64,000 bases of DNA from Candidatus Melainabacteria bacterium (GTDB lineage Bacteria; Cyanobacteriota; Vampirovibrionia; Obscuribacterales; Obscuribacteraceae), in assembly GCA_017307165.1 (NCBI GenBank), contig JAFKGK010000005.1:62001-126000 (forward strand), written 5' to 3'. The notes under the pieces are model-generated. The model was not told the origin of the DNA and ran no database searches. It saw nothing but the letters and a program-made list of their open reading frames with translations. Both the position numbers and the translations under genes were made by a program. Of this stretch, positions 21,854 through 46,411 are shown piece after piece (positions within the stretch are counted from its first letter, which is position 1; each line of letters starts with the position of its first letter).

Positions 21854-22627
21854 TCAAGGCAAATAATAGACATTTAGCAAAAAGCTCAGCACTGGAGTCG
21901 AGAGTTTCATTTTTTGGGCCTTGTCTTGCGCCTGTGTCCTTAGCTGATTACGGGACTGGCCGCCAAAAGACTTGGCCTGCACTTGATCCGCACCGATAGA
22001 CATGTCTTTGATGGCGAGTACTCGCTGGTATTTTTCGAGTGCACGTAAAAATGCAACCAGATCTGCGTACTGTCCTGATACGTACAGTCTTCTTTGGATC
22101 TGCTTGATGCCCAATGGGGGTGCTTGGTCTTTGCTTAGTGCTGTGGTGCTGCTCGTGACCGTGTCTTTTGGCTTGAGCAGGGTCTTGTCTTTATCTCTGT
22201 TTATACCGGAGATATTGGCAAACATAGCCTCTAGCTCTTGATCTGCCGAATATGGATCTCGGTCTTTTTCGCCATTGTGATTATTGTTATTATTGGCCTC
22301 AATGGAAAGTATCTCGACATTGGCCATCCTGGCCATTTTTTGCAAATCGAGTATGAGTACGTCTAGATCAGCAGTGCTGGGCACGGCGCTGCGCAAGTGG
22401 ATGATGTCTTGTTCTAGAGTATTGCGTGCGCCGATCAGACGATTTTTCTGCATCATTCGATCCTGCACTGCCCTGTACTCGATCTCCTTGCTGTCGACTT
22501 CTTTATGCTGCTTCTCGGCTTCTTCCCATAGAGGAGCCAGGTAAGAGGCCGCCAGGGTGAGTGATATCGCGAGCGGTGCATAGACAGCGATCAGGACCAA
22601 GTTGCGATTTTGCTGAGTGATCTGCAT
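21854..22627 (-). CDS. pilO: Type IV pilus alignment protein PilO-like
   Basis: Bitopic protein with one N-terminal helix (about 10-32), a coiled coil (about 35-90) and a ferredoxin-like periplasmic domain, the PilO layout. A hydrophilic insert with an Asn run (NNNNNHNGEK, near 110-120) separates the two halves. The periplasmic signature GQYADLVAFLRALEKYQRVLAI matches the PilO fold core. Its start shares one base with the PilM-PilN fusion stop (TGATG). Together with the PilP-like protein it would form the inner-membrane alignment complex. Confidence 0.8.
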   Translation of the reverse strand: MQITQQNRNLVLIAVYAPLAISLTLAASYLAPLWEEAEKQHKEVDSKEIEYRAVQDRMMQKNRLIGARNTLEQDIIHLRSAVPSTADLDVLILDLQKMARMANVEILSIEANNNNNHNGEKDRDPYSADQELEAMFANISGINRDKDKTLLKPKDTVTSSTTALSKDQAPPLGIKQIQRRLYVSGQYADLVAFLRALEKYQRVLAIKDMSIGADQVQAKSFGGQSRNQLRTQAQDKAQKMKLSTPVLSFLLNVYYLP

Positions 22628-24342
22628 CAGTGCGTCCCCTGCTCGACACTGGATGAAATGGCAAAGTCGATCAGGTTCTCGGCGCTGCTGTTCTTGTTGT
22701 CCGGACCTGTTTTTTCTGGTTTGCCGGCAAAGTCTATGCTTGTGTCTCTCAGCATTTTTGAGTCGCCCAGATTGATAGAAAAATTGGAGACCTGAGGATA
22801 GTCTTTGGCTCTGCCCTCTATCTTGAGCTGATTGTCGGCTATGGAGACCTGGGTCAGCTGTACGCCATCCGGGAGATCACGCTGTATGGTCTCGAGGTAT
22901 CGAGACCAGTGCCTTTCGCCAGCGACGAGTTGATCGAGGATGCGCTTGCGCCTGGACAAAAGCGCGTTTTGATCGCTTATGGACTTGATGTCGCTGAGTG
23001 ATCTTTGGCCCTCGGTGATCTGTCTGTTCAATTGCTCTATACGACTGGCGCTATGAGGGAGATCCCATAGTTGTATGTATGACCAGGCCGCTATGGTCAA
23101 GAACACCGATAGAGCCGAAAGCCCAATGCCGACCTTGTACCAGCGCGGCATCGCCTCTGCTTCAAAGGTCATTTTTTGCGTGCGCAAGACATCAAAAGAT
23201 AAGGGTATGCGCCCTTCTTTGTTGAGGTCCATGTCGACCGTGACCGATGGATTCCATGTTGTTTCGATCGATGAGCCTGTCAGGGCTGCGAGTATGGGGC
23301 GCATGCGCTCAGAGATCTGATGACTATCCACCGCCATGTCTCGCATGGGGTCGCCTGTGATTACTTTTAGCTTGAGCTTGGAGGCAAAATACTGATCCAC
23401 ATTGGGCAGCATGCAGCCGGGACCAGTCAGGATCACCTGGTCGATCTTGATGTCTCCGACTTGAGATTTGTAAAAATCGACGGACTTGATCAATTCATCG
23501 GCTATGTCACTAAATACGGTGCGGGCTACTTGTCCGGCCTGGCCCAGACGCATATCGGTAGGTGTAATGTTAAAAACCGGCACCTCGGGCAATATCTCCA
23601 TTGCCTGGTCGAAAGACATCTCCAGACTAGAGGCGATGGCTTCGGTGAGGGCTTCTACTCCTAATATGATAGAGCGGCCAAAGAGGGGCATTGCTGAGCG
23701 GACGATATTGATATCAGTGGCATCTTGCCTGATATTGACCACTAGAGACAAGTGGCCCGAAGACCCGAGATAGCCTGCCAGAGCCAGGCCGCGTATCACC
23801 GCCAGCGAAGACACTTCGACGCGGCCGAGTTTGACGCCGGCGACATCGCACATGCGCCAATAGCTATCGACTATGGTGTGCTGAATGGCGGAGAGGATGA
23901 CGTCGACACGCCTGACGCCATCCGGATCGGTGCGCTCTGTGGAGTGCATCTGATACCAGTCAAGATTGGCTTCGGTGATAGGAAAAGGCACATGGTTGGT
24001 GGCTTCTTGTGTGACTACATCGGCGAGCTCTTCGGCAGGCATGCCTACCGGCACCGGCATCAGGCGGATGACCACCGCCTGGGCTGGAACGGCGAGATTG
24101 ATGGTGGGAGCCTGGCTGGTAAGTGGTATCTGAGCGATGCGCAATAGCTCTGCTAAAAGCTGACCCATGGCATCCGAGTCGATGATGAGACCCTCGCGTA
24201 TGCAATTGGGAGGAGTCGGCAAGCAGGCAAAGCGCGCGACCTCTATGCCCGCCTTGGTCTTTTCTAGTTGCACCAGGGTGCAGCTATCGCTATTGATGTC
24301 GAGGCCGAGGGTGACCCCTTTTTTCTTGCCAAAGCTAAACAT
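22627..24342 (-). CDS. PilM-PilN fusion protein of the type IV pilus
   Basis: A 571-residue protein that joins two normally separate parts. Residues 1-355 are PilM: an actin-like fold starting GVTLGLDINSDS, with PilM motifs LPTPPNCIREGLI and EATNHVPFP and a nucleotide-site loop ILTGPGCMLPN. Residues about 365-571 are PilN-like: a short cytoplasmic segment, one helix (403-423), a coiled coil and a small periplasmic domain (GVQLTQVSIADNQLKIEGRA). In most systems the PilN N-terminal INLLP peptide docks onto PilM; here the join replaces that docking, as in GspL of type II secretion. The sequence in the linker is DMDLNKEGRIPLSF, with no clean INLLP. No frameshift is seen: the reading frame is continuous. 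Confidence 0.85.
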   Translation of the reverse strand: MFSFGKKKGVTLGLDINSDSCTLVQLEKTKAGIEVARFACLPTPPNCIREGLIIDSDAMGQLLAELLRIAQIPLTSQAPTINLAVPAQAVVIRLMPVPVGMPAEELADVVTQEATNHVPFPITEANLDWYQMHSTERTDPDGVRRVDVILSAIQHTIVDSYWRMCDVAGVKLGRVEVSSLAVIRGLALAGYLGSSGHLSLVVNIRQDATDINIVRSAMPLFGRSIILGVEALTEAIASSLEMSFDQAMEILPEVPVFNITPTDMRLGQAGQVARTVFSDIADELIKSVDFYKSQVGDIKIDQVILTGPGCMLPNVDQYFASKLKLKVITGDPMRDMAVDSHQISERMRPILAALTGSSIETTWNPSVTVDMDLNKEGRIPLSFDVLRTQKMTFEAEAMPRWYKVGIGLSALSVFLTIAAWSYIQLWDLPHSASRIEQLNRQITEGQRSLSDIKSISDQNALLSRRKRILDQLVAGERHWSRYLETIQRDLPDGVQLTQVSIADNQLKIEGRAKDYPQVSNFSINLGDSKMLRDTSIDFAGKPEKTGPDNKNSSAENLIDFAISSSVEQGTH

Positions 24343-24359
24343 GCAAATATTATGCCAGC

Positions 24360-25964
24360 TTATTTGATAAAGCTGTCGAATTGGTTGCCCGAAGCCCAGT
24401 ATAGGCTGATCAAGGCGGCAAGTACGAGGGCCGGGCCAAAGGGAAAGGTCTTGGTCAATCGCAGACCCTTATTAGTCATGCCGAGGATAGCGCCAGCCAA
24501 GCCGATCAGAGGCGGCAGGCTCCAGATGGTGGGACTGCTCAAAAGCTCGGTGTAATGGGTGAGGTATGAGGCCGTTAACAGCAGGGCGACAGGGATGGAG
24601 CCAAAGATGAGGAAGCCCCCGAGAGCAGGCCTGAGGACCTTGTTCAATTGATGACGGGCATGGAGGTCGAGCAAGAGATAGATCAGTCCCATTACGGCGC
24701 CGACGATAAAGGCGATGATCACTGTGGACATGAGGCGCTCCCAGCCCAACCAGGCACCGATGAGGGCAGCAAGGACTGCATCGCCTCCTCCCATGACTTC
24801 TATCGGTTCGTAGGTTCTGCCGCCTCTTTCGTTAAGCTGCAAAGACAAAGAGGCGTCTAGATAAGGATCGCAGTGGATAGTCTGGGGAGCGGGGGTGACG
24901 GGCTCTGGAGATTTGGTGTGTTTTTCTCTCCACTTTTCTTTGTAGAGGCCAAAAAAATCAAAAACAATGTAGCAAAGGCCCACGGCACCGAGCGCTCCGG
25001 CAATATCCTGGCGGTAAAAAAAGCTATAGGCGATGCCCGATACGATGATCGGATAAAGGATATCGACGCTGATGCGTGGCAGCCTGGGAAGGCCAGCGAT
25101 AAAGCCCAGAGCGATAGTCAGTGGCATCCAGTGCAGTCCTAGAAAGCTAGCTGGGACCGAGGCCATGACCGGATCTCCAAAATATGGTGTTTCTTGAGGA
25201 GCAGGCTCTAGATGATCCTCTATTTCATTTTTTTGCAGGGCAAGAGCAAGATTTAAATCTAGATCTAGTTCTAAGTCTACATCTGGGTCTAGATCGGGGT
25301 CTTCGTCTGGTGGGCACTCTAATAGCTCTGGATCAAAATCAGGATGGTCTGGATTGAGCTCTGGGTGCAAATAGAGATAGATCTTGAGTCCATAATGGGC
25401 GATAAAGTCAAAGATGAGATAAGACATCCCCACGGCCATCATGCTGCCGACAAAATCATTGCGTACCAAATGAGCAAATATAAGTCCTAAGATGATGGAC
25501 GGATAGGTGATCTCATGTGGTATCAGTTTTTCTTTAAAATCGGTAACTGCCACTGCCATCAATACTATGCTCAAAATCGCCAGGCCAGCCAATAGCTCCC
25601 AGACAAATGCAGCGCCGCGACCGGTCTCGGCCAAATATGGCACAAAATTGGCATCGACTACATAGAGCATGTAGACAAATACTACTCCGGTGATCGTCTC
25701 CACGACTGGGTAATGCCAGTGGATCTTTTGCTTGCAGTAACGACATCGTCCTTGCAATAAGCAGTATGAAATGATTGGTATCAGATCCGGTGCAGCAAGC
25801 CGATGCTGGCAGTGAGAGCAATGACTGGCCGGATAGAGGATCGATTGGTTTGCGAGACTGCGAAGGGCCAGGACGTTGACAAAGCTGCCGGATATGGCCC
25901 CGAGCACGAAGGCTATAAAATAGGCGACATGGTATGGAGCCTTGATCAGATCGACCGGATCCAT
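24360..25964 (-). CDS. pilD: Enlarged prepilin peptidase (A24 family) with internal duplication and acidic insert
   Basis: Cleaves prepilin leader peptides and methylates the new N-terminus. The ATG at 25964 shares one base with the upstream permease stop (TGATG). Zinc-binding Cys pairs are at 49/52 and 74/77, and catalytic Asp142 (AVTDFKEKLIP) and Asp395 (MGGGDAVLAA) are present. The protein has 534 residues against the usual 250-290. Between the aspartates lies a second copy of the first helical unit: residues about 146-200 (IPHEITYPSIILG ... MSYLIFDFI) and about 296-345 (ISVDILYPIIVSG ... LCYIVFDFF). They are separated by an acidic segment (about 200-255) with Asp-Xaa repeats encoded by a GAY-CTA hexamer array. 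Possible substrates include the TadE-like proteins. Confidence 0.88.
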   Translation of the reverse strand: MDPVDLIKAPYHVAYFIAFVLGAISGSFVNVLALRSLANQSILYPASHCSHCQHRLAAPDLIPIISYCLLQGRCRYCKQKIHWHYPVVETITGVVFVYMLYVVDANFVPYLAETGRGAAFVWELLAGLAILSIVLMAVAVTDFKEKLIPHEITYPSIILGLIFAHLVRNDFVGSMMAVGMSYLIFDFIAHYGLKIYLYLHPELNPDHPDFDPELLECPPDEDPDLDPDVDLELDLDLNLALALQKNEIEDHLEPAPQETPYFGDPVMASVPASFLGLHWMPLTIALGFIAGLPRLPRISVDILYPIIVSGIAYSFFYRQDIAGALGAVGLCYIVFDFFGLYKEKWREKHTKSPEPVTPAPQTIHCDPYLDASLSLQLNERGGRTYEPIEVMGGGDAVLAALIGAWLGWERLMSTVIIAFIVGAVMGLIYLLLDLHARHQLNKVLRPALGGFLIFGSIPVALLLTASYLTHYTELLSSPTIWSLPPLIGLAGAILGMTNKGLRLTKTFPFGPALVLAALISLYWASGNQFDSFIK

Positions 25965-26773
25965 CAAGCGTGCTCCCGGCGATCGGTCACCATGGACGAT
26001 ACCGCAAGCAGGATTGCTGTATAGCAAGCCAGATAGGCCAAGGCGCCCGAAAGTACAGTCGCATCGCATAAGATACCGGCAATCAGGCTGGATCGGATTT
26101 TTGTCGCGGTCTCGAGGTCGGGCAAGAGCCAGTAGGCTCCTTGTAGTAATTTTGCTGTGGCAAGAGTCGGATTGAGTCTGGCGGCAGCCAATAGAGAAGC
26201 ATTAGCATGAGCTGCGATCCAGAGCGCCAGGGTAAAGACCACGGACATCAAAGGCGAGGTAAAGCAGGCAAAAAATATCGACATTGCCACCACAAAGGCT
26301 ATCTCTGCATAAGTCAGTGCTGCCGCGCAAGCCAGATTGCAAAATAAGGCTCCAGTGGCGCTTGAATCGATCGGTCCCGTGGCAAAAATGAGCATCAAAT
26401 AGAGCCAGATAGACATGAGGACTACCAGTACTCCGAGGCAGGCGCTGATACCGGCAAATTTGCCCACCACATATTGTGCTGCTCCCACCGGTTTGCTAAA
26501 GACAAATTGGATGGTGCCTCTTTCTCGCTCTTTGTAGAGCAAATTGGCGCCAGCAAAAATGGCGATCGCCGAGCCGATCAGATCTATTGCGGCCAGGCCG
26601 ATGTCCTGGATGATACGCACTTGTTGACCGATGGACAGAGAGCCAAGGACCTGGCCAAGGATCAAGAGTCCGATAGCAAAGGCAAAAAATGCATAGACGA
26701 TCTTGTCGCGCGATACCTCGCGAAAAGTGTTGAGAGCAATGGCTCTGGTGGCTCCGAAAAATGGATCTTTCAA
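25964..26773 (-). CDS. ABC-2 type transporter permease
   Basis: Membrane subunit with six predicted helices and the conserved cytoplasmic start (ALNTFREVSRDKIVYAFF) plus YKERERGTIQFVFSKP between helices 2 and 3, a hallmark of NosY/ABC-2 permeases. The start is TTG within TTGA, overlapping the ATPase gene by four bases. It is located between the sigma factor and pilus genes. Homologous ABC pairs next to pilus genes are known in Myxococcus (PilGHI), where they help pilus assembly; a similar role here is inference. Confidence 0.85.
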   Translation of the reverse strand: MKDPFFGATRAIALNTFREVSRDKIVYAFFAFAIGLLILGQVLGSLSIGQQVRIIQDIGLAAIDLIGSAIAIFAGANLLYKERERGTIQFVFSKPVGAAQYVVGKFAGISACLGVLVVLMSIWLYLMLIFATGPIDSSATGALFCNLACAAALTYAEIAFVVAMSIFFACFTSPLMSVVFTLALWIAAHANASLLAAARLNPTLATAKLLQGAYWLLPDLETATKIRSSLIAGILCDATVLSGALAYLACYTAILLAVSSMVTDRREHA

Positions 26774-27513
26774 GGCGCTGCCTCTCGATCCTCAATGGCA
26801 TCAAAAAAATAATCCTGTATGGATATGTTTGCCAGATCGGCTGTCAGTGCTCTTTTTATGATACGGCCCTGGTTCATCACGGCAATTTCATCACAAAGTA
26901 TCCGCACATCCTCCAGGAGGTGGGTATTGAGAAAAACGGTCTTGCCTCTCTGCTTGAGCGATTTGACGATCTCTCGCACATCGTGGATACCGATAGGATC
27001 GAGACCAGACATAGGCTCATCGAGAAATAATAAATCCGGATCGTTGATGAGGGCCTGAGCAAGGCCGGCGCGCTGCAACATGCCTTTGCTATAAGCCGCA
27101 AGTCTTTTGTCCGCATGAGGCATCAAACCGGTCAAGCCCAGCATCTCTGTGACCCGGTCTTTTTTTGCACGGCCTGTAAGCCCAAAGAGCGAGGCTGCAA
27201 AATCGAGAAACTCACGTCCGGTCAAATGGCCGTAAAAAAAAGGGTTTTCGGGTAGGTAGCCGATTTTATGCTTGACGATCGGATCATTTGGGGCTCGACC
27301 TAAAATAGTGATCTTGCCGCTATCGGGACGCACCAGATTGATCAGCATCTTGACCGTTGTGGTCTTGCCGGCTCCATTTGGGCCAATGAGGCCAAAAACG
27401 CAGCCGGCCTCGATCGATAGATCGAGGTCGGTTACGACTCTTTTGCGATGCATGAAAAAACCAGAGACTCTGTCCTTTTGTAGGTTAGAGGCCTCGATTG
27501 CCTTCATCGACAC
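26770..27513 (-). CDS. ABC transporter ATP-binding protein
   Basis: ATPase with Walker A GPNGAGKTTTVK, signature YSKGMLQRAGLAQA, Walker B LLFLDEPMSGLDPIG and switch His in LNTHLLEDV. It pairs with the overlapping permease. It begins 12 bases after the sigma-factor stop, so the two are likely co-transcribed. A PilI-type role (ABC ATPase of pilus loci) is possible by position, but the substrate is unknown. Confidence 0.9.
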   Translation of the reverse strand: MSMKAIEASNLQKDRVSGFFMHRKRVVTDLDLSIEAGCVFGLIGPNGAGKTTTVKMLINLVRPDSGKITILGRAPNDPIVKHKIGYLPENPFFYGHLTGREFLDFAASLFGLTGRAKKDRVTEMLGLTGLMPHADKRLAAYSKGMLQRAGLAQALINDPDLLFLDEPMSGLDPIGIHDVREIVKSLKQRGKTVFLNTHLLEDVRILCDEIAVMNQGRIIKRALTADLANISIQDYFFDAIEDREAAP

Positions 27514-27525
27514 TATGCCGCCAGA

Positions 27526-28413
27526 TCAGGACTTGCTGCCTGGGGCTTTTTTGCTCTGGGTGATGATCTTGTTGAGCTCGGTAGTGGCGGCCCTCAAACG
27601 TCTCGATACCTGCATCTGCGAGATGCCGAGACGACGTGCGACCTCTGTTTGGCTCAGATCTTCGTAGAAGGTCAATTGCACTACCTCGCGTAGACCATCG
27701 CGCAGCTGCTTGATGGCTTCTGCGAGCATAAAGCGGTCTTCTTTTGCGAGCTGATTGGTGTGGTAACGCGAATCGACGAGGGTGTCGATCAGCGATTGCT
27801 CCGAACCTGCATCGTTTGAAAGAGCCTGGTCGAGAGAGATCAGAGTGCGGCGACGATCGACTTCGTAGGCTTCGTTGACGCGGCTGACCGGTATCTCGAG
27901 CTCGATGGCGATCTCGATGTCGCTGGGCTCGCGGCCTAGCTTGGCGGTGAGGTTTTGGACAAGACGGTTTATGCGGAATGACAGCTCCTGCAACTCGCGA
28001 GGAGCGCGGATCATAGCTGTCTTGTCGCGCAGATAGTGCCTGATCTCGCCTGTAATCAGGTGAGTGGCATAGGTCTGAAACTTGGCGCCGGCATCTGGCT
28101 TAAACTGGTCGACGGCCTTGATCAAACCGATCGAGCCGACCTGGATGAGATCTTCGACAGGGTCGGTGGATCTACGCGCAAGGCCATAAGCAATGCGCTT
28201 GACCAGGGGCAAGGCTGCCTGGATGATCGAATCTCTCAGTGCCGGATCGCGAGACTCGGCATACATCGACAACCAGGTATGGATCTGGTCCTGGTTTTTA
28301 TTGTCGGCCTTGGCCGAGATCGGGGACGGAATGTCGTCTCCACTTTCTTGCACTTCGTTTATCACCACGGCTTGCGTCTTTATGCTGGGATTAATTTGTA
28401 ATTCTGGGGACAT
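27526..28413 (-). CDS. RNA polymerase sigma factor, group 3 (SigF/SigB type)
   Basis: Regions 2, 3 and 4 of sigma-70 without a region 1.1. Region 2 includes DLIQVGSIGLIKAVDQF and the -10 recognition helix AKFQTYATHLITGEIRHYLRD; region 4 ends in the helix-turn-helix LSQTEVARRLGISQMQVSRRL. This pattern fits SigF/SigB/FliA-like alternative factors. The ATG at 28413 is preferred; an in-frame TTG 18 codons upstream at 28467 has no better ribosome site. The gene lies between pilC and the ABC/pilD/pilM block. In Synechocystis SigF controls pilus genes, so a local role in pilus expression is plausible, but that is inference. Confidence 0.88.
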   Translation of the reverse strand: MSPELQINPSIKTQAVVINEVQESGDDIPSPISAKADNKNQDQIHTWLSMYAESRDPALRDSIIQAALPLVKRIAYGLARRSTDPVEDLIQVGSIGLIKAVDQFKPDAGAKFQTYATHLITGEIRHYLRDKTAMIRAPRELQELSFRINRLVQNLTAKLGREPSDIEIAIELEIPVSRVNEAYEVDRRRTLISLDQALSNDAGSEQSLIDTLVDSRYHTNQLAKEDRFMLAEAIKQLRDGLREVVQLTFYEDLSQTEVARRLGISQMQVSRRLRAATTELNKIITQSKKAPGSKS

Positions 28414-28623
28414 CGTTTTACTGCCTTCACCATATCTATCATCTATAGCCCTAAGGCAGAGTACCAAACATATTAAACAATTGCTACTCTTTCATGCGGA
28501 AAACCGGATGCCAAGAAAGAAAGTCGCATCGTTATCGGCTGAAACCATGCCTGGTGGCATTTTTTTGCCGACCTTGGCCTGGATGCAATAAGATGAGCGC
28601 CGGTTAATCAAAGTTAATTATAG

Positions 28624-31071: not shown

Positions 31072-33117
31072 TTAGTGCTTGTGGCTCTGACAGTAGGGAC
31101 AGACGGACCAGTCTCCGTGTATTTCGGCATCACAAGTGCGGCATGCGTATTCCTGATCTGCATCTGCTCTGGCGAGACCGCATTTGGGGCAGCTGGCCCA
31201 GTCTTCTTGCTGCAGTGTGCCACAACGGACACAACTGGTCTTGAGCTCGTGTTGGCAAAAAGGGCATTTGACAAAGTCTTCGGATATAGGATTGCGGCAC
31301 TTGCTACACAATTTTTCTTCGGCAGAGTCGGAGAGAGTAACTCGCACTACTTCTTCGCTAGTTGTGTAGCCCTGACCTACCAGTCTGATGCTGTAGTCCT
31401 TGAGAGAGATCATTGCCGATTGCTTGGCTGCAAGCCTGATCATGGCCGTAGGGGAGTCCTTGCAGATGAGGTCGCGGATCTCGTCGTTCATGCGCATTAC
31501 TTCAAAGACTCCGATCCGGTTGCGGTAGCCTGTCTGGTGGCAGTCGTCGCAGCCTCTGCCCTTTTTAAAGACAGGCCATTGCTTGTCGTCCAGCTCGAGC
31601 TTGTAATAGGCCACCGTCGAGTCAGCCAGTCTGTCTTGCGTCTTGTCTAGAAGGCCGAGATACTCCAGAGTAGATCTTTCTGGGCTATAAGACTCCTTGC
31701 AGGATTCGCAGACCCTCCTCAATAGTCTTTGAGCGATGACGCCGATTGTCGCAGATGCCACCAGATATGGATCGACCTCCATCTCGGCCAGGCGTGTCAC
31801 TGCTCCTGGTGCGTCGTTGGTGTGCAAGGTGGTAAAGACCAGGTGGCCTGTAAGTGCAGCTTCTACTGCTATTTTTGCCGTCTCTCTGTCCCTGGTCTCA
31901 CCCACCAGGATGATATCCGGGTCCTGCCTCAAAAATGACCTGAGGATGCGTGCAAAATCCAGGCCTTTTTCTCTCAATACCTGCACCTGCGTAATACCGG
32001 CCATCTCGTATTCGATGGGGTCTTCGGCAGTGAGTATATTGACCTCGGGAGTGTTTTTTTCGGCCAGGGCTGAGTAGAGGGTCGTCGTCTTGCCGGAGCC
32101 GGTGGGGCCGGTGACAAAGATAATGCCATAGGGCTTCATCACCATCTCTCTGATCAGATTGAGAGTCTCGGGCTCAGTGACTAGGTGCTCGAGACCAAAT
32201 GTAGTGCCCGACTTGTCGAGTTGGCGCATGACGACTTTTTCGCCGTGCTTGCTGGGGATAGTGGAGACCCTAAAATCTATATCTTTGCCACTGAATCTAA
32301 CGCGGATGCGTCCGTCCTGCGGCAGGCGGCGTTCGGCGATATCGAGGTCGGCCATGATCTTGTAACGAGAGACCAGAGCGGCTTGAATGGCCTTGGGCAA
32401 GCGGCGGTCTACAAAGAGCACGCCGTCGAGTCGGTAGCGCACTATGACGTTTTTGTCCTGGGGCTCGATGTGTACATCCGAGCACTGTCTCTTGATCGCC
32501 TTGGCGAGGATCTGATTGGCGAGTTGGACGATCGGAGCGTCCTGGGCCTGGCGAGCCAGGTCGAGGTCGTTGATGGCTTCTTCGTAGTCGATCAGAACGT
32601 CCAGGCTGGAAAGGTCTACCTCAGACTCGATAAATGTCTGCTCTGCCTGGTGCTCCCATTCGTCCGATAATTCTTCTTGGCGGCGGGAGTAGACGGTCTC
32701 CATAAAGTGCTGGAAATCATCCTCTGTGCATACCACCGGCCTGACCGTTACGCTCTTTAGCCTGTATTTGATGTCGTCCATGGCCAAAAGATTGTTGGGA
32801 TTGACCATGGCAAGAGTGAGATCCTTGCCCTCTAAGCTGAGAGGCACGACCTGGTGCTGTCTCATCACTTTTTCGGGCAGGAGCTCCAGAGCCTGAGCCT
32901 CGGCCGAGACCTTATTGAGCGAGACGTATTTGCAACCATACTGGGTCTCCAGTGCTGATTTGAGGTGGTTTTCGTTGGCCAGCCCCAGGCGCGAAAGGAT
33001 CAAAGAGATAGGCTCGCCGGTGCGCATCCTCTCTTGTTGTACGATCTTGAGTTCTTCGCTGGTGATCAGCCCGTTGTCCACGAGCAGTTCACCGATCTCT
33101 TTTTTGATGAGGGCCAT
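31072..33117 (-). CDS. pilB: Type IV pilus extension ATPase PilB with three C-terminal zinc ribbons
   Basis: Hexameric motor that drives pilus extension. Residues 1-145 are MshEN-like, and the ATPase core has Walker A GPTGSGKTTTLYS (337-349), Asp box LTAEDPIEYE, Walker B LRQDPDIILVGETRD and the internal zinc site Cys470/473/523/526 usual for PilB/GspE. After the normal C-terminus (about residue 595) there is an added tail of three near-identical zinc ribbons, each CxxC-10-CxxC: Cys604/607/618/621, 629/632/643/646 and 659/662/673/676. This tail is not part of standard PilB and resembles double-zinc-ribbon modules used for protein contacts. A small hairpin replaces a clear ribosome site upstream. 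Confidence 0.93.
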   Translation of the reverse strand: MALIKKEIGELLVDNGLITSEELKIVQQERMRTGEPISLILSRLGLANENHLKSALETQYGCKYVSLNKVSAEAQALELLPEKVMRQHQVVPLSLEGKDLTLAMVNPNNLLAMDDIKYRLKSVTVRPVVCTEDDFQHFMETVYSRRQEELSDEWEHQAEQTFIESEVDLSSLDVLIDYEEAINDLDLARQAQDAPIVQLANQILAKAIKRQCSDVHIEPQDKNVIVRYRLDGVLFVDRRLPKAIQAALVSRYKIMADLDIAERRLPQDGRIRVRFSGKDIDFRVSTIPSKHGEKVVMRQLDKSGTTFGLEHLVTEPETLNLIREMVMKPYGIIFVTGPTGSGKTTTLYSALAEKNTPEVNILTAEDPIEYEMAGITQVQVLREKGLDFARILRSFLRQDPDIILVGETRDRETAKIAVEAALTGHLVFTTLHTNDAPGAVTRLAEMEVDPYLVASATIGVIAQRLLRRVCESCKESYSPERSTLEYLGLLDKTQDRLADSTVAYYKLELDDKQWPVFKKGRGCDDCHQTGYRNRIGVFEVMRMNDEIRDLICKDSPTAMIRLAAKQSAMISLKDYSIRLVGQGYTTSEEVVRVTLSDSAEEKLCSKCRNPISEDFVKCPFCQHELKTSCVRCGTLQQEDWASCPKCGLARADADQEYACRTCDAEIHGDWSVCPYCQSHKH

Positions 33118-35273: not shown

Positions 35274-37490
35274 TTAGCAGGGACCGGTGTAGTCGCATCC
35301 GCCACCACTCTGGCAATAGCATCCGGCGGGCATGTTTAGCACGTCGTTGCCACCATTTTGCTGGATGGTGAAACTCGAGGTCGGATTGGAAGAACCGGTA
35401 GGGCAGCAGTTGGAAGTGCTAGCACCCATGGTGACCTGGCCGAGCAGGTTGTTCCAGCCGGAAGAGCGAGTGAAGGAATACCAGTTGACTACACACACGC
35501 GGCCTGGATAGTCGTATGGTGTGGGGTAACCCCAGTCTCCAGGCACGTCTACCATCTGGAAGGGTTCGAGCTCTACAGTCTTCATCTCAGTAGGATTGGC
35601 TTCTTGTTTTGCGTCAGCCTTTTGGCCAGCAAAGTCTTTGAGCCAGGGAGCGTCGGCAAAGGCCTGGCTCTCTTCTTTTAGAACGATTGCACCCTTGCCG
35701 CCATTGGCATTTTCGGAACGGTAGATGTAGCACCGTCCTCCCATGGGGATATAGGCTTGCTTGAGGACTGCGTCCAGGTCTTGATTCCAGGTAGGATCGA
35801 TCTGGTTGCAACGGTTAGTGAGAAACTTCCACATTTTGCCGTTTTTGGAGATGCCTTCGGGGCTCTGGCTGTTGAGCCATACGCCCTGGTCTTTGGTGAT
35901 GCGGAAATCAGGAGCACTCAGAGGACCGCGTCCGGTGGTGGGTATGTGCGCCACGCCGGAGTGGTAGGTAGTGGGGTGGAAATCATCACCAGTGGCTCTA
36001 GCAGTTAAGAGAGCGAGGTTGAAGATATCAGCCACGTTGACGGACTCATTATTGGATCCTACTGGAGTAGGTTTGGGAATATTGTAGGCATTTTCTACTA
36101 TAGGTCTGGCCCAAAGATTGCGGCTGTCAGGCTGGTTGTACATCTTCATAGCCTGGTTGGGCTGGCTGAGTGGATTGTTGAGATCGTTGTTGTCAAAATC
36201 CGTGCCGCCGATGCCATTGATGGTGGCGCAATTGGCGGTGCTGACACCATTTGAGCCGAGCGAATCGCCGGAGAGGGCAAAACCCACGCGGAGAGCGCTG
36301 CAATTTGGAGTCTGACCGGAGTTGTTTGCATTGATGATGTTTTGCAGATATTGAGCAGGCGAGAGACCGCCGAGGCCGGGATCGCCCTGGCTTACGAGGT
36401 AGGGTAGAGGCTTGCCGTCAGCGCTGGGATAGGAGAAAGGATGGTCCATGGCCTGGACAAAGGCGTCGGTGCCACCGCCTGCAACACCGGTAGCAGGCGA
36501 GGGGGATCCATTTTGCAGGCGGATGAAGCCGCGAGGGATAGCCACAGGGTAGCCCTCTGGATCGATCGGAGCAACCAGTGCGAAGGCATTGAAATTGCCG
36601 AGATAGCCTTGTTTGGAATTGGCCTTGGAGGTCAAAGAAAGGGCGTTAGGAACTGCCTTGTCCCAGTTGAAGGTATTGGCTCCGGCCTTGGGATTGGTAT
36701 TGAGTACGAAAGAGGCCTGGGAGACGAGGTGTGGCTTGGTGCCGGGCATCAGAGGGACAAAGTAAGTGCTGGCGAGTGAAGAATTGGGGGTAATGCCGTC
36801 TAGGTATCCTTTGAGATAGGACTTGCCGGGATGGCTGGATACATTGGTCACCCAGTTTTTGCCCTGGCTGTTGAACATGACCGAAGCATTTGTGCTGGAG
36901 TCATAGTCAGGAAACTGTTTGGGATCTATATATACATTGCTGGCCGTAGCTCTCTCCATAAAGGAGGGCTTGGCTGCGCCCATGGCATTGATGTCATCTG
37001 TGCCAAATTGCTTGGTGGGATTGAGCTGGGCGATATTGGTAAAAAAGCTGTGGACGGCGCCGGGCTCTTGCAGTTTGTTGGCAAGATCGCCTGATACGAC
37101 TTTGAGGACATTGTTGACCTGAGCCGAGTGGCTGAGGGCGCCAGAATCGAGACCATCCTTTTGGATATCATAGGCGTTGATAGCAACGAGAAGGGCCTGA
37201 GCATTGAGCTTGTTGATATTGCGCAGGTTGACATTGCCGTTGGTATTGCTCTCCGGATCGCTGCAGCCATTAAACTGCACCTGGTCTCCAGACATGGCTA
37301 AAGGCACTGAGACCTTGGTAAGCGCCGAGCGCACCAGCGATAAGTTGCCGGCATCTGTCGCTCGCTGCATCTGCTGACCACCGCCGAGCAGGTTGATGAG
37401 GGCGACGATCCCCACTACCAAGACCGCGAAGGCAAATAGCAATGTGGCAACAAGTGCCAGCGATGCGCCTTTCTGTTTTCTCTTGTTCAT
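35274..37490 (-). CDS. TadG-like pilus-assembly protein with a long extracytoplasmic domain
   Basis: The N-terminus KQKGASLALVATLLFAFAVL is a pseudopilin/TadG-like segment: a basic stretch, Gly8, then one long hydrophobic helix (residues 9-33), followed by QQMQRATDAGNLSLVRSAL, the typical TadE/TadG continuation. The remaining 680 residues are extracytoplasmic, Gly/Asn/Ser-rich with no motif I can name, and end in a Cys-rich tail (CYCQSGGGCDYTGPC). The Glu at +5 of true pilins is Leu here. It diverges from two TadE-like genes across a 307-base gap. TadA, TadB, TadC and TadZ are not in the window, so these proteins may work with the type IV pilus motor next door. Confidence 0.7.
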   Translation of the reverse strand: MNKRKQKGASLALVATLLFAFAVLVVGIVALINLLGGGQQMQRATDAGNLSLVRSALTKVSVPLAMSGDQVQFNGCSDPESNTNGNVNLRNINKLNAQALLVAINAYDIQKDGLDSGALSHSAQVNNVLKVVSGDLANKLQEPGAVHSFFTNIAQLNPTKQFGTDDINAMGAAKPSFMERATASNVYIDPKQFPDYDSSTNASVMFNSQGKNWVTNVSSHPGKSYLKGYLDGITPNSSLASTYFVPLMPGTKPHLVSQASFVLNTNPKAGANTFNWDKAVPNALSLTSKANSKQGYLGNFNAFALVAPIDPEGYPVAIPRGFIRLQNGSPSPATGVAGGGTDAFVQAMDHPFSYPSADGKPLPYLVSQGDPGLGGLSPAQYLQNIINANNSGQTPNCSALRVGFALSGDSLGSNGVSTANCATINGIGGTDFDNNDLNNPLSQPNQAMKMYNQPDSRNLWARPIVENAYNIPKPTPVGSNNESVNVADIFNLALLTARATGDDFHPTTYHSGVAHIPTTGRGPLSAPDFRITKDQGVWLNSQSPEGISKNGKMWKFLTNRCNQIDPTWNQDLDAVLKQAYIPMGGRCYIYRSENANGGKGAIVLKEESQAFADAPWLKDFAGQKADAKQEANPTEMKTVELEPFQMVDVPGDWGYPTPYDYPGRVCVVNWYSFTRSSGWNNLLGQVTMGASTSNCCPTGSSNPTSSFTIQQNGGNDVLNMPAGCYCQSGGGCDYTGPC

Positions 37491-37797: not shown

Positions 37798-38331
37798 ATG
37801 ACTAAACAGCCAGAACATCTTTTATACAGCCCACACAAGCCGCGCAGACGCAGGGGCAGTGCCATCACCGAGATGGCACCAGCGATGTTTATCTTGCTCA
37901 TGGTCTTTTTCTTCCCTGCGGTCAATCTAGTCGCTTTGGGCCTTGGCTATGCCGACTGTCTCTACCTCCACGATCTGCTCCTGCGCGAGGCAGCCCTGCA
38001 AAAAGTCCTGATCATCAATCCTTCACCGCCACCGCCTTACTCAGTGGACTATAGCTGCAGCACCGATCCTAATGGACCGCTCAATGAGTTGATCAAAAGC
38101 TGGAGCTCCCAGGGGCTGGGGAGATTTGTGCAGACAAATAACACTCCAACGCAAAAGATCTATATAGATCTCACCGAAGGATCCAATAATGCCCGCTATG
38201 TCCATTGCGATCTCTATATAGAGATACGTCCATTTTTGGCTTTGCCATTTCCGCTCAAGGTCCCGGCTATCAATGCTCCTGTGCCTTTTACCATAACTGG
38301 TAAGCGCGTCATCGAAACCATGCCGGTCTAG
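37798..38331 (+). CDS. TadE-like pseudopilin (177 aa)
   Basis: A basic leader (KPRRRRG20) is followed by SAITE with Glu25 at +5 and a hydrophobic helix (about 26-48), the TadE-type prepilin signature; cleavage after Gly20 is expected. The mature domain has several Cys and Pro residues and a beta-rich end. No Shine-Dalgarno sequence stands before the ATG at a normal distance, so a leaderless start or a different start is possible. It precedes a second TadE-like gene by 18 bases. Confidence 0.7.
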   Translation: MTKQPEHLLYSPHKPRRRRGSAITEMAPAMFILLMVFFFPAVNLVALGLGYADCLYLHDLLLREAALQKVLIINPSPPPPYSVDYSCSTDPNGPLNELIKSWSSQGLGRFVQTNNTPTQKIYIDLTEGSNNARYVHCDLYIEIRPFLALPFPLKVPAINAPVPFTITGKRVIETMPV

Positions 38332-38349: not shown

Positions 38350-38781
38350 ATGAGTCGCTTTAGGACAGGCAAGTCTAAAAAATATGCGAAAGGGCAGAGC
38401 ATCATCGAGGTGATGGTCGGTGGTCTTATACTCATCCCGCTCTTACTGGCAATCATCGACGTCTCTGTAGTCGCCATCGGTGGTGAGCTGGTCAATAGGC
38501 TCTCAAAAGAAGCAGCCCGTGCTGCAGCCAACTGCAGCAACAAGACTCTTGCTGATGCGGCGGTGGTCGACATAAAAAATACTTTTCAGCCCTCCAGCAC
38601 TTTCAAAAACCTCAATATCGCCATCACCGACTACGTCGGTACTGCCGATGGACAGCTGACAGTGGTTTGCGACGTGACTGTCGTGCTGCCGGTCTCCGTG
38701 CCATTGCTCAAAGTTGGTCCGACCATACCGGTCAAGACTCAGTTTACCGAAGCTATCGTAGGCATAGCTCCTCCACGTTGA
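38350..38781 (+). CDS. TadE-like pseudopilin (143 aa)
   Basis: The N-terminus KKYAKG15-QSIIE20 followed by a hydrophobic helix (VMVGGLILIPLLLAIIDVSVV) is a clear TadE/pseudopilin signature, with Glu at +5 relative to Gly15. The helix is followed by GGELVNRLSKEAARAAANC, the usual amphipathic continuation. The short mature domain is beta-rich. It is translated next to the first TadE-like gene and 13 bases before a membrane TPR-like gene. It is probably processed by the prepilin peptidase encoded about 13 kb away. Confidence 0.75.
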   Translation: MSRFRTGKSKKYAKGQSIIEVMVGGLILIPLLLAIIDVSVVAIGGELVNRLSKEAARAAANCSNKTLADAAVVDIKNTFQPSSTFKNLNIAITDYVGTADGQLTVVCDVTVVLPVSVPLLKVGPTIPVKTQFTEAIVGIAPPR

Positions 38782-41469: not shown

Positions 41470-42702
41470 ATGATGCTAGCAGGCAGATCAGCGATCTTTG
41501 AGAGGGCCGGGGCCTCGAGCTTTTTGGCCAGCCTTGCTGTGTTTGCCTGTCTAAGTGCGCTGATCGGAATATTGCATCCATTGAGCCGCATCAATACTGT
41601 CAACCTGGAGCGGGGAGAGTCGTTTAATGCTCTGGCTTCTCTGCAAAAGGAAATGGCGGCTCAAAATACTAAACAGGATCAATGCCTGCTCTTTGGTTCC
41701 AGTCTAGTGCTTGCTCCGGCCCTCCAAGATGAGGCGGCCTTTAGAAATGCTCCTTTCAAACGATTTTTTGAGAGACGTTTGACAGCACTCGAGAGCGATC
41801 TAGGGCATAAAAAGCGGGTCTATCTTCTGGCGGTGGGCGGTGAGATGGCCTCTGATGCTTTTTTTGTGGCACAACAATTATTGGACTCGCCTGCATTTAA
41901 AAATGGTGGCGGCACTAAGACAATCGTCTACGGTATCGCTCCTCGGGACTTTAGCGACAATCTCTTTCCTCGTGTAGACGCCAGTCCAATATTTAGGCTG
42001 CATGCCGGTCTGCGCGACTTGCCCTTTTATTTTGCCCGGCACTGGAGACAAGTCGATTTTAATCAGTCTGCCACCATAGTCTGCGAAAAACTCAATCCGC
42101 TCTATTGTATGCGCACCGACTGGCAAAACCTGGCGCAAATACGGGCCAAGCGTGCTCTAGAAAAAATCTTGCCCATGGTGGTTTTTGAAAAATACAGCGA
42201 CAGTCTGGAGCTCAAGGCGCAAAGACGTGGACTCTTGCCCGGTGAGGCGATCGGTACGCCACAGGTTTATCCGGGCTTTGCTCTCGAGCACAATGATAGC
42301 CAAAAGACGCATGCCGAATACATAAGACGTTATACGCCCTATGACAAATCAAAGGCGGATGTGCAATTTGCCTATCTCGATCGATTTATCTCTTTAGCCC
42401 GCGAGCATGGCATCGACGTGACCCTGGTCAATATGCCGCTTTCGCGGCGCAATATGAGTATCATGCCAATTGACGCCTATAGCGATTACCTCGCTCGAGT
42501 TAAGGCCGCTGCCATCAAAGGTGGTGCAAGACTCGTGGATCTAAATCAGGGTGAAATGCAGAATGACGATCGGTATGCCGATACCGTGCATATGAAACCT
42601 GCGGTGAGCAGGGAGTTTATGCAGATCATGGCCGGGGTGATCGGCGGCAAAACCGATGGCAATCGCTCTGTTTCGGTTTTAAATGGCAATAGGCAATATT
42701 AA
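41470..42702 (+). CDS. Membrane-anchored SGNH-like protein, copy 4 (divergent orientation)
   Basis: One N-terminal helix (about 17-36) and an extracytoplasmic domain related to the three minus-strand SGNH-like proteins downstream. Shared blocks are LLFGSSLV with Ser77/Ser78 (nucleophile block), GGEMASDAFF, YGIAPRDFSDN, AEYIRRYTPYD, LVNMPLSRRNMSI and DTVHM (catalytic Asp-His block). Proteins of this type (AlgJ/AlgX, PatB, DltD relatives) act with an MBOAT acyltransferase to acylate polymers outside the membrane. It lies in the other direction and is not part of the MBOAT operon. It differs most from the others, so it may be a duplicate with its own control. No Shine-Dalgarno sequence is seen. 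Confidence 0.75.
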   Translation: MMLAGRSAIFERAGASSFLASLAVFACLSALIGILHPLSRINTVNLERGESFNALASLQKEMAAQNTKQDQCLLFGSSLVLAPALQDEAAFRNAPFKRFFERRLTALESDLGHKKRVYLLAVGGEMASDAFFVAQQLLDSPAFKNGGGTKTIVYGIAPRDFSDNLFPRVDASPIFRLHAGLRDLPFYFARHWRQVDFNQSATIVCEKLNPLYCMRTDWQNLAQIRAKRALEKILPMVVFEKYSDSLELKAQRRGLLPGEAIGTPQVYPGFALEHNDSQKTHAEYIRRYTPYDKSKADVQFAYLDRFISLAREHGIDVTLVNMPLSRRNMSIMPIDAYSDYLARVKAAAIKGGARLVDLNQGEMQNDDRYADTVHMKPAVSREFMQIMAGVIGGKTDGNRSVSVLNGNRQY

Positions 42703-42760
42703 AAGCAGGATATTGCAAATATTGATTTGTCGTACTGGTAACGGCCGCAACTGATTGCGC

Positions 42761-42786
42761 GCCCCGCTCATAGAATGCGGGGCTTT
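42761..42786 (+). terminator. GC-rich hairpin after the plus-strand SGNH-like gene
   Basis: GCCCCGC (42761-42767) and GCGGGGC (42777-42783) form a perfect 7-bp stem with a 9-base loop, followed by TTTACAA. It lies 58 bases after the stop codon. The short T run makes it a moderate terminator. Confidence 0.55.
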
Positions 42787-42879
42787 ACAATCAGATAGCG
42801 GCCTTAAGAGTAAGAGAAAGATTGCAATCTGTGATTCTAGATTGTCAGATTTATCATTGCCTATAATCAAAAAGGCTAT

Positions 42880-42929
42880 GACCAGATGATTTGCCACGCA
42901 TTCTATGAGCGGGAGCAGATCATCTGGTC
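42880..42929 (-). terminator. Long-armed hairpin after the MBOAT/SGNH operon
   Basis: GACCAGATGAT (42880-42890) and ATCATCTGGTC (42919-42929) are perfectly complementary, 11 bp, with a 28-base loop. It starts 34 bases after the last stop of the minus-strand operon, and read in that direction the stem is followed six bases later by TTTTT. The loop carries a 16-base inverted copy of the sequence at 42763-42778. Confidence 0.5.
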
Positions 42930-42963
42930 TGGCCTGTTTAAGTTGGATGCAATAAAGCCAGAG

Positions 42964-43704
42964 CTAATCCGGCAATCTCCTCGCTTCTGCCTCTTCTTTC
43001 AATTTGCGCATGAGATCTCTTGTTTCTTGTTGTTCTGGATTGAGCGCGAGCGCCGTTTCTGCTGCTCGGATCGCGCCTTCTATGTCTTGTTGCCCGATGG
43101 CTTCGTGTACTAAAACTAGCCAGGCCTGTACGAGATCGGGATTGAGAGCGAGGGCCGAGCGGGCCTCTTTGGCTGCGTACTCGATTTGATGGCGTCGCAA
43201 GTCTATTGCTGCCAGGCCCATATAGGCCCATTCAAATTGCGGATAGAGACGCGTGATCTCCAGATAGCCATTGCTCGCCTGGTCGAGGCGGCCCTGGCTG
43301 AGATCTCTGTCGGCGCGTCTAAAGCGCTCCTCGCAGTCCTTGGGTACAGGATGGAGAGGCAGTTCGGTATTGAGGATGATGGCGGCGGTCGAGGAGTAAG
43401 GCGGCACATTTGCTGCTTTGATTTTATTAAAAATCATCATCGCCTGATTTAGTTTCAAATCGGCTCTGGCCTTTTGGCCTTGCTCGAACAATCTTTTGAT
43501 CTCGGCCAATTTTGCCGGTCCAATAGTATTAGCTTTGCGATCTAAGGCATCCCGTTCTTTTATTTGTTGATTGGTCTGATCGTCTCTCCAGACATCATGC
43601 TGGTGCTCAGGTGCAAGAGCCCACGCTTCCCAAAAATGACCAGGCGCCATGCATGACAGCGAGATCGAAATAAAGAGAAAAAGCCTGCCAGATCTCAGTG
43701 CCAT
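42964..43704 (-). CDS. Exported TPR-like protein at the end of the acylation operon
   Basis: A signal peptide (about residues 1-29, ending WALA) is followed by charged helices and about four TPR-like units (LSQGRLDQASNGYLEITRLY; YAAKEARSALALNPDLVQA; GAIRAAETALALNPEQQET). It should act outside the inner membrane as a contact protein. It overlaps the third SGNH-like gene by 10 bases, so it is part of the same transcript; TPR partners (for example AlgK) are usual in alginate-type secretion complexes. That comparison is inference. Confidence 0.7.
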   Translation of the reverse strand: MALRSGRLFLFISISLSCMAPGHFWEAWALAPEHQHDVWRDDQTNQQIKERDALDRKANTIGPAKLAEIKRLFEQGQKARADLKLNQAMMIFNKIKAANVPPYSSTAAIILNTELPLHPVPKDCEERFRRADRDLSQGRLDQASNGYLEITRLYPQFEWAYMGLAAIDLRRHQIEYAAKEARSALALNPDLVQAWLVLVHEAIGQQDIEGAIRAAETALALNPEQQETRDLMRKLKEEAEARRLPD

Positions 43705-45056
43705 TGGGATTGGCTGGCGGCCGTCTGCCTGCTATCTTGGGAAACAGGCCGGGTAAGGGCTGCGACGATGGTCGGATCGCTCGTCACAGCCTGTGCCATG
43801 CGGTCTACGAGCTTGCTGCCACCCCAGCGATTGAGGTGGACTGTATCCAAAAAGTCGTGCTTGCCAAAGTCGGCATCGTTAAAGAGGCTGATGAAGCGAG
43901 CGCCATGACTGGCTGAGGTCTGTGCAAGATAGCCTTCGAAAGATTGCCAGAATGATTGGGGCAAGAGCGCCTTATTATTGGGCAGGCTGGGCATGCCGAT
44001 AACGATGGTCTTGACCTTGTTTTGCTGTAGATAGGAGAGCAAGGCCTCAAAATATGCTTTTTGTCCGGTCACGCAAGCTGGTTTAGTGGTCTTGTAGCGT
44101 CTAATGTATTCGTGGCTGTTGTCGATATAAAGATAATCAGGATTGGCAGGCAGTCTCCAAAATCCTCTGCCGACATCTCCTGCGGCACCCGAGATGGCTT
44201 GCAGGACCTTGGTGGCGCCAGCGGTGCGAGCAATGCCTCCGGTGGTCTGGTCTTTTTCTAGACCCTTTCCTTCGGGGTTGGTAAATGTAGCTACGTTGCC
44301 CAGACTGGGGGGAGCGTCCCCGGCTGCGATCTGAGCGACTTGCTTGAGTGGCAGGTGATTTTTAAAAAAATCATCCATCAAGCCAAAGACATCAGGATAA
44401 GAAACAAGGGAGAGCTTGCCTAGATCGACATATGGGGTGAGAAAGTGAAAGCTGTCTGTAGCAGAAGCCGCAGGCAGGGTATTGTCGATAAAATCTCGAG
44501 GATTGACGCCGATTATCGCGACTTTTGGCAGTCTGTCTGGCTTTAAGAGGGTCTGCGAGATCAGATAATGATCGGAGGCCATCGCTCCGCCCATGGAAAA
44601 ATTGAAGGCCTTGAGATTGTCTATGCTGCTATTTAGATCGGTGCGCGAAGCGATTGCGTGTTCGAGGCGCTTTACCTCGCGTTGATCGGTCGTGTCAACG
44701 GCTTGCTGTCTATGATTGGCCTCAGCCGAAAAAATCGCCGAGCCCATCTGGCTGGAGCCAAACAGCACCACATCCGGTGCTTTGCCCCAGGTCTCGACTT
44801 CGGATAGGAAGCTACGGCATACCCACCATATCCAGGGGCCTTCTTGGCGAGCTTCGTAATTTGTGTTTTTAATGGCTTCCAAAGTCATGTTTTTGCGGGC
44901 CGTGATGCCTTGAGCCTTATAGATTTGACCCAGTGCGACGTTGACCAGGGCAAAGGCTGCGAGAGCAACAGCAAAGGCGTTGACCTTGTGACGCTTTAAT
45001 TTGGTAGCCTCAAATTTAGTATCATCTGCAGTACTGTTCACTATGCTATTTCTCAC
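43695..45056 (-). CDS. Membrane-anchored SGNH-like protein, copy 3
   Basis: One helix (about 27-46) after a basic cytoplasmic N-terminus, then an extracytoplasmic SGNH-like domain. Block I is VLFGSSQM (Ser101/Ser102); the middle blocks are MGGAMASDHYL and GVNPRDFIDNTLPAASATDSFHFLT (in parts); the last block is FLDTVHLNRWGG with the Asp-x-x-His pair. Starts with GTG in a GTGA overlap with the preceding gene. Closest to copies 1 and 2, which are its neighbours, so it is a product of tandem duplication. Probably an O-acyltransferase or esterase partner of the MBOAT protein. Confidence 0.78.
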   Translation of the reverse strand: MRNSIVNSTADDTKFEATKLKRHKVNAFAVALAAFALVNVALGQIYKAQGITARKNMTLEAIKNTNYEARQEGPWIWWVCRSFLSEVETWGKAPDVVLFGSSQMGSAIFSAEANHRQQAVDTTDQREVKRLEHAIASRTDLNSSIDNLKAFNFSMGGAMASDHYLISQTLLKPDRLPKVAIIGVNPRDFIDNTLPAASATDSFHFLTPYVDLGKLSLVSYPDVFGLMDDFFKNHLPLKQVAQIAAGDAPPSLGNVATFTNPEGKGLEKDQTTGGIARTAGATKVLQAISGAAGDVGRGFWRLPANPDYLYIDNSHEYIRRYKTTKPACVTGQKAYFEALLSYLQQNKVKTIVIGMPSLPNNKALLPQSFWQSFEGYLAQTSASHGARFISLFNDADFGKHDFLDTVHLNRWGGSKLVDRMAQAVTSDPTIVAALTRPVSQDSRQTAASQSQWH

Positions 45057-46411
45057 ATGCTCAATTGCTGTTTGGGGCCGATACGCTTTGAGTTTTCGTA
45101 GTCCAGGGCTTTTTCGATATTTGGCTTGAGCTTTATGCGTCCATCCCTGATCTCCTGCCCAAAAACATTGTTGATCTCATCCGGTCTGATGTCTATGCGG
45201 TTTTCGACCAGGACACGATCGCGAGAGAGCTTTTGTCCTGAGATCTCCATTGTCGATGCCAGTCTGTTATTGCCGGCGAGCGCCTCGGTGAGATTGTCAA
45301 AAAACTTGAAACCACCAAAGGCGTTGAGGTGGACATAGTCATGATAATCGGTGAGCTCGTAGTTGTATTGGCAAAAGTCATTAAGGTCAAAGGCCGATAC
45401 TTGCGAATCGAAGGCAAATTGTTTGAGTTGCCCGATAAATTTGATGTAGAGCTGCGGTTTGAGCACCATGATGTTTTGCTTGGTAATAGGCATATTGACC
45501 AGGACCAGCTCTATACGCTCCTTGCGGCAAAGATTGACGAGCTTGCGCAAAAAGTAAAATTGCGTGGAGTAGGTATGGCGATCCGGTCTGGAGTAGCGCT
45601 CCATGTACTCGGCATTGTTATCGCGAAATTGCTCGCTCTTTTGCGCTGCCGTCATGGGCAATACCATCAGACTGCGCGGGTGAAATTCCCCGGCCTTGTA
45701 AGAAGGAATGATGGCATTGCGCTTCCAGAAGTCATAGACCTGTCCGTTGGGCGGATAGGCAATTTTGTCGAGCAATAGTTTTTGGTAGTCGCCGACCTTC
45801 ATCTGGATGTCCAGACCATGGTGGGCAAGATAGAGATTGCGGTTGATAAACCATTCGAGACGGCCGAGCGGATCGCGAAAGAGTCCCGAAGCGCATTCGT
45901 CGGTAGAGACCAGACGAGTTAAAAACCTGAATGGCTCGGTATCCGTAGGATTGGTCATCGAGCTATCGATAAAGTCGCGCGGTGCCACCCCATAGATCAC
46001 TGTATCTGGTCTATGAGCTGTCGCCAGCATGGCTTTGAGGGTTAAGTAAGCGTCTGAAGGCATCTGTCCAGGTGCAGACAGATTGAATGTATGAAATTCG
46101 CCACCAAATTTTTGCTTGAGCTTGTGATCGAAATACTCTGCATTGTGATGCGTTGTCGAATCGAGCGGACGATTGAGATAGTTGGCATCGGCACCAGCCA
46201 CTGCCGACACCATGAGCGAAGAGCCGAGCAAAGCCACATTGTGGGTCTCGGGATGGTGGCGCAAATCATTGAAGGTCCACCAGGCCCAACCCTTGTAGGG
46301 AAACCTATAGAGGTTGAAATTGATAGGGGTGAAAATAGACAGGAGTATATTTGCAGCCATAAAGAGGCCGACGGCAGTGACAAAATTGCTGCGACGGCGC
46401 GGCTTGCTCAT
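45053..46411 (-). CDS. Membrane-anchored SGNH-like protein, copy 2
   Basis: One helix (about 11-30), then the SGNH-like domain with ALLGSSLM (Ser64/Ser65), PGQMPSDAYLTLKAM, YGVAPRDFIDSSM, YMERYSRPD and LVNMPITKQN. The final block reads DYHDYVHLNAFGG, in which the Asp of the usual D-x-V-H is kept as Asp-Tyr-Val-His. Overlaps copy 1 by ATGA and copy 3 by GTGA. The extracytoplasmic part carries an extra insert rich in aromatic residues before YMERYS. Likely a component of polymer O-acylation. Confidence 0.78.
   Translation of the reverse strand: MSKPRRRSNFVTAVGLFMAANILLSIFTPINFNLYRFPYKGWAWWTFNDLRHHPETHNVALLGSSLMVSAVAGADANYLNRPLDSTTHHNAEYFDHKLKQKFGGEFHTFNLSAPGQMPSDAYLTLKAMLATAHRPDTVIYGVAPRDFIDSSMTNPTDTEPFRFLTRLVSTDECASGLFRDPLGRLEWFINRNLYLAHHGLDIQMKVGDYQKLLLDKIAYPPNGQVYDFWKRNAIIPSYKAGEFHPRSLMVLPMTAAQKSEQFRDNNAEYMERYSRPDRHTYSTQFYFLRKLVNLCRKERIELVLVNMPITKQNIMVLKPQLYIKFIGQLKQFAFDSQVSAFDLNDFCQYNYELTDYHDYVHLNAFGGFKFFDNLTEALAGNNRLASTMEISGQKLSRDRVLVENRIDIRPDEINNVFGQEIRDGRIKLKPNIEKALDYENSKRIGPKQQLSM

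Follow-up and report, generated by a model that had tools for sequence, protein, structure and literature searches.

A PilD-type prepilin peptidase with an internally duplicated core in an uncultured genome of the Obscuribacterales

Prepilin peptidases of the PilD family cleave the leader of their substrates at the cytoplasmic face of the membrane with two aspartates and bring about a zinc-dependent methylation via a cysteine-bearing domain (PMC10191384, PMC3584216). They belong to the same class of two-aspartate membrane proteases as the GxGD proteases FlaK and presenilin (PMC3584216). PilD has been expressed in cell-free liposomes (PMC3584216). Short A24 peptidases of the TadV/CpaA type share the Peptidase_A24 core but measure about 180 aa and have neither an A24_N domain nor a duplication; such TadV-type enzymes without methylase domain process TadE and TadF in Tad systems (PMC10191384). 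In the PilD of P. aeruginosa, activity was lost when two to three residues were inserted between the aspartates, in the helix at V187, and processing became slower with four additional residues at F184-V187 (PMC13170266). The phage-resistance mutant PilD12 of the same species carries an in-frame duplication between the catalytic aspartates and is partly active (PMC13170266). The protein described here likewise bears an in-frame duplication between these two residues. The PilD12 duplication, however, is four residues long, fresh, reversible and situated in a helix, whereas the present one covers about 127 model positions, is ancient and fixed, and effectively lies in the cytosolic loop.

The sequence studied, referred to as the window, is the whole stretch of 64,000 nt from Candidatus Melainabacteria bacterium (Obscuribacterales; Obscuribacteraceae) at positions 62,001-126,000 of the forward strand of JAFKGK010000005.1 (assembly GCA_017307165.1). 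It holds a gene for a PilD-type prepilin peptidase/methylase (Table 1), the start codon of which overlaps the stop codon of the upstream ABC-2 gene as TGATG, which supports both the start and an operon. Two CxxC pairs, the TD aspartate, the GxGD aspartate and a pilus gene setting, all features of membership in MEROPS A24A/PilD, are present, and the helices follow the order seen in PilD prepilin peptidase-methylases. The second catalytic aspartate, D395, lies in an MGGGD motif, and the protein has a degenerate YFGD motif besides. In an alignment of 42 members C49, C52, C74, C77, D142 and D395 are invariant; the statement of an earlier, sequence-only reading that both catalytic aspartates and both cysteine pairs are kept is thus borne out. 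Peptidase_A24 (PF01478) matched the protein in two stretches, and NCBIfam gave no match to it. The usual PilD architecture of a single peptidase core with about eight transmembrane helices is not found here, as the core region is doubled. Since a single core is the usual architecture and not a defining catalytic feature, membership in PilD stands and the protein is a variant. Judged from sequence and gene order, it is the PilD orthologue (type IV prepilin peptidase/N-methylase) of its pilus cluster, with putative activity.

The gene is the only A24 match with an N-domain in the genome. A second A24 peptidase, encoded elsewhere, is short (183 aa), has no methylase domain and resembles TadV. A strong N_methyl prepilin candidate (42.4 bits), a member of the normal substrate class of PilD, was also found elsewhere in the genome. 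Single-copy PilD proteins of other Obscuribacterales (for instance at loci L065, L003 and L004) are syntenic orthologues, about 31-45% identical overall, with an acidic linker at the same position; unlike the window protein they have no duplication. The protein had been described as about twice the usual size, which holds against the 290 aa of P. aeruginosa PilD (PMC13170266) but not against the complete relatives, which range from 327 to about 480 aa.

Table 1. Location of pilD and of the parts of its product in the window (residue numbers refer to the 534-residue protein)
Feature	Position in window	Strand	Evidence
PilD-type prepilin peptidase/methylase gene, 534 aa	24360..25964	-	intact ORF; Pfam A24_N_bact and Peptidase_A24
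A24_N (methylase) domain, residues 20-101, zinc-type C49, C52, C74, C77	25662..25907	-	Pfam A24_N_bact PF06750, E 3.7e-30
First catalytic Asp D142, TDFKEKLIP motif after TM3, single	25539..25541	-	invariant; 7/7 near-invariant positions kept
Copy 1 helix pair a-b, residues 150-199, family-like	25368..25517	-	15/16 near-invariant residues kept
Linker 1, residues 203-260, acidic, low GC3	25185..25358	-	20 D/E and 1 K/R in residues 203-262
Imperfect hexamer (Asp-Leu) array, ~7.8 copies, ~47 bp, ~16 residues	25249..25295	.	68% matches, score 38
Copy 1 remnant of second catalytic segment, residues 262-291 (YFGD, D264), degenerate	25092..25181	-	7/15 near-invariant residues kept
Copy 2 helix pair a'-b', residues 298-349, diverged, without TD motif	24918..25073	-	11/16 near-invariant residues kept
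Linker 2, residues 350-389; DPYLDASLSL...EPIEVM as in the linker of relative L054	24798..24917	-	
Copy 2 second catalytic segment, residues 391-436 (MGGGD, D395), intact	24657..24794	-	15/15 near-invariant residues kept
C-terminal helices, residues 437-534, single copy	24360..24656	-	family profile and conservation

The doubling became visible when the protein was compared with a family profile made from 41 single-copy relatives. Model positions 6-258 matched residues 8-291 and model positions 132-360 matched residues 300-526; the two matches overlap, so that about 127 model positions are present twice, at residues ~150-291 and ~300-422. The doubled unit starts right after TDFKEKLIP, runs through two helices and the linker and ends just past the GxGD segment (GFLVG), while the TD motif stays outside and single. 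What distinguishes this protein from other PilD is a doubled a-b-linker-GxGD-c core. Because the unit reaches past the second catalytic motif, copy 1 carries a degenerate version of it (YFGD, D264). Copy 1 ends in this decayed segment, YFGDPVMASVPASFLGLHWMPLTIALGFIAG, the counterpart of which in copy 2 is GGGDAVLAALIGAWLGWERLMSTVIIAFIVG. The segment, made up of YFGD at residues 261-264 and the start of the next helix, scored 24.8 bits against a profile of the family GGGD segment, where the best of about 1800 shuffles reached 5.6. The protein thus has three candidate aspartates, D142, D264 and D395.

Self-comparison gave the same picture. Residues 146-200 aligned to residues 296-345 with a local score of 97; 2000 shuffles averaged 23.6 and reached 50 at most (Gumbel P ~7e-10). 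Other membrane segments of the protein scored 17-31 in the same comparison. This self-alignment had been proposed from the letters of the sequence, and it is significant. The longer alignment of residues ~146-291 to ~296-425 reached P ~3e-14. Nearly all full-length single-copy relatives align twice to the window protein, both times via the same piece of the relative. The two copies are about 44% identical in the helix pair and can no longer be aligned as DNA. On these sequence comparisons, the internal core duplication is real and old. The sequence-only reading was right that the unit following the first catalytic aspartate was copied. Its bounds of 146-200 and 296-345 were too short: the unit given by the profile is about 2.5 times longer and includes the linker and the decayed second-aspartate motif.

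Between D142 and D395 lie 253 residues, compared with 68 between D149 and D217 in P. aeruginosa (PMC13170266) and 73-171 between the two aspartates in the complete relatives. As insertions of two to three residues abolish the activity of P. aeruginosa PilD (PMC13170266), tolerance of some 130 extra residues is not self-evident. The explanation that best fits the data as a whole, and that we regard as likely, is a canonical PilD with an in-frame core duplication, in which D142 and D395 carry out catalysis and the inner block takes no part in it. The duplication, placed in the lineage of the window, copied the ~127 model positions from just after TD to just past GxGD. The outer halves, that is the N-domain, TD and the copy 1 helix pair together with the copy 2 GGGD segment and the C-terminal helices, would make up an ordinary enzyme, in which D142 and D395 would cleave prepilin leaders at the cytoplasmic membrane face and the four cysteines would serve the methylase domain. 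The inner block may be a bundle of two to four additional helices within the cytosolic loop between the aspartates, the place where PilD relatives already bear large changes in length, and an even number of helices would keep the downstream topology. In the main, this block would be ballast that the enzyme tolerates, though it may slightly alter the rate of processing or the contacts with partners; this is the most tentative part of the proposal.

The distribution of conservation agrees with this division. Measured against the family, the outer parts score 1.76 and 2.13 bits per position and the inner parts 0.77 and 1.13, and no part of the protein is less conserved than the inner block, composed of the YFGD segment and the second helix pair. 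AlphaFold2 placed the outer helices mostly at pLDDT 80-95, with boundaries that correspond one-to-one to those of the single-copy relative L065, and modelled residues 393-436 with confidence. The inner block was mostly at pLDDT 30-60 and residues 252-288 fell below 50, low values which are partly expected because hardly any sequences align in the inner columns. For this protein the link to FlaK and presenilin rests on the literature, since a PDB sequence search gave no informative match and Foldseek no PDB match at E <= 0.001 for either model.

The inner block could instead be functional, its extra helices and YFGD pseudo-motif acting as a non-cleaving half-site that slows, gates or re-targets processing, or providing oligomer or partner contacts. 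Despite the divergence of the copies the frame is still open and its product still hydrophobic (Kyte-Doolittle peaks at 274-292, 298-316 and 321-339), D264 is kept, and small in-frame duplications tune the processing rate of P. aeruginosa PilD (PMC13170266). Openness and hydrophobicity, however, are also expected simply because the half that follows must be read in frame and sit in the membrane; the block is precisely where conservation is lowest, and its conservation is seen in no second genome, one genome of the genus having been compared. We consider a functional inner block unlikely.

Quite improbable is an active site formed by D142 and D264 with the copy 2 GGGD segment as the supernumerary one. 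These two aspartates are 122 residues apart, which falls within the family range that the D142-D395 spacing exceeds, and the GD is retained in copy 1. Of the 15 near-invariant residues, however, the copy 1 segment lacks 8, both glycines before GD among them, and it has gained prolines; copy 2 keeps all 15, and it is the copy 2 segment that is modelled confidently. We favour D142 and D395 as the putative catalytic pair also in view of this comparison. With a few relatives (L003, G011, G025 and G063) BLAST also paired residues 260-297 with TM3. This would fit a unit beginning at TM3 (TM3-a-b-linker), with residues 258-297 as a decayed TD helix, but the YFGD-containing segment that resembles the GGGD-segment profile scored about 0 bits against a TM3 profile; on this direct comparison we rejected a duplication starting at TM3, a reading to which we give hardly any credit. 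An assembly artefact, in which a collapsed or chimeric contig would join two pilD copies, would be compatible with a fragmented genome that has no congener in the comparison, but it is very unlikely and the least credible of these readings, because one intact reading frame lies on a 302-kb contig, the copies are too diverged for a misjoined repeat and cannot be aligned as DNA, the neighbours stand in the conserved family order, and the genome has no other A24_N-type pilD.

The family search covered 50 genomes from 24 genera, 47 of which gave a match. A separate scan of contigs gave matches with an alignment as query and none with the single protein. No member examined from the 49 genomes (23 genera) other than those of the window had the duplication, and in a profile scan of all ORFs in 112 loci repeated model coverage occurred only in the window gene. 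A query spanning the inner junction matched relatives only via the helix pair, bar a few alternative TM3 alignments. A class-wide Pfam scan showed no other obvious double-core gene among the matches listed, the Pfam model being blind to the inner segments even in the genome of the window. The event is placed on the branch of the window and is not dated further, as the comparison includes no further genome of its genus. Both copies share the same derived alanine at a near-invariant glycine (A177 and A327), which is consistent with a duplication inside this lineage. A tree of the helix-pair unit (59 columns) had long branches and did not resolve. The outer parts of pilD have a long end branch (1.79; median 0.28). 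On regression against genes nearby the residuals were moderate (-0.04 against PilMN, -0.06 against PilC) and those of two ABC genes more extreme, and we do not claim that pilD as a whole is exceptionally accelerated. These two ABC transporter genes, which adjoin pilD (25964-27513), are the most diverged among the compared genomes relative to PilMN.

The linker that joins the helix pair to the GGGD segment could be measured in 43 relatives. It is 9-106 residues long there, with a median net charge of -13, and in three of them (L109, L095 and L088) it is net basic and rich in Arg and Lys. The three basic cases indicate that acidity is not under strict selection, and the family-wide presence together with the spread of length and charge identifies the acidic stretch as an ancestral, freely varying loop. 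The GC3 of this stretch is 0.26, against 0.52-0.71 elsewhere in pilD, which fits recent simple-sequence growth. The acidic link had been traced to a hexamer array; the array is present but accounts for only ~47 bp (~16 residues), arrays of similar or better score occur elsewhere in the window, and the acidic stretch has not been newly inserted. Its suggested part as a gate or as a binder of leaders is not upheld, nor is its status as an innovation, given that the stretch is family-wide, variable and sometimes basic. In the genome D1_Bin_4, PilD is split over two contig ends (L080:4929-6806 and L111:2-1831), with about 390 and about 450 extra residues between the helix pair and MGGGD, in which Pfam found no domain; synteny on either side of the halves points to a single gene that has a very large insertion between the aspartates.

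The order pilB-pilT-pilC-sigma-ABC-ABC2-pilD-pilMN-pilO is common, wholly or in the covered part, to about 35 relatives. The type IV pilus cluster thus also includes a gene for a sigma-70-family factor and two ABC transporter genes (window 25964-28467; loci L065-L106). A single protein of 571 aa (22627-24342) combines the PilM and PilN domains, and neighbouring relatives match it as one unit; the PilB-type ATPase (31072-33117) has a C-terminal double zinc-ribbon extension. Adjacent TadE-like proteins had been put forward as substrates of the peptidase. The nearest TadE-like match, however, lies about 12 kb away in a short frame of the + strand (window ~38392-38520) and scores 17.5 bits, below the cut-off of 22.9, and the genome has its own short TadV-like A24 peptidase; the proposal is not sustained. 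In the two larger neighbours of this frame (35274-37490 and 37798-38331) Pfam found no domain. Further along, at 41470-49187, inspection of the ORF list by eye showed four similar ORFs with GSSL/GSSQ-type N-terminal motifs around a small TPR-like ORF; the group adjoins an MBOAT-like acyltransferase and looks like a paralogous tandem family.

In the part of the literature covered, we found no account of a prepilin peptidase whose core is duplicated internally. Such a duplication is thus apparently unreported, and so far it is found in one uncultured genome. That a pseudo-active half-site derived from the enzyme's own core regulates cleavage, with the inter-aspartate loop as a docking site for accessory modules such as the several hundred residues of D1_Bin_4, is a speculative extension that we regard as rather improbable; the window protein probably works in the normal way. 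It is thus a real but modest variant of PilD, with a natural excess of about 130 residues in a loop of already widely varying length. If the enzyme is active, its two catalytic halves would assemble independently of the intervening loop, and the protein would point to a site that accepts additional domains, engineered or natural.
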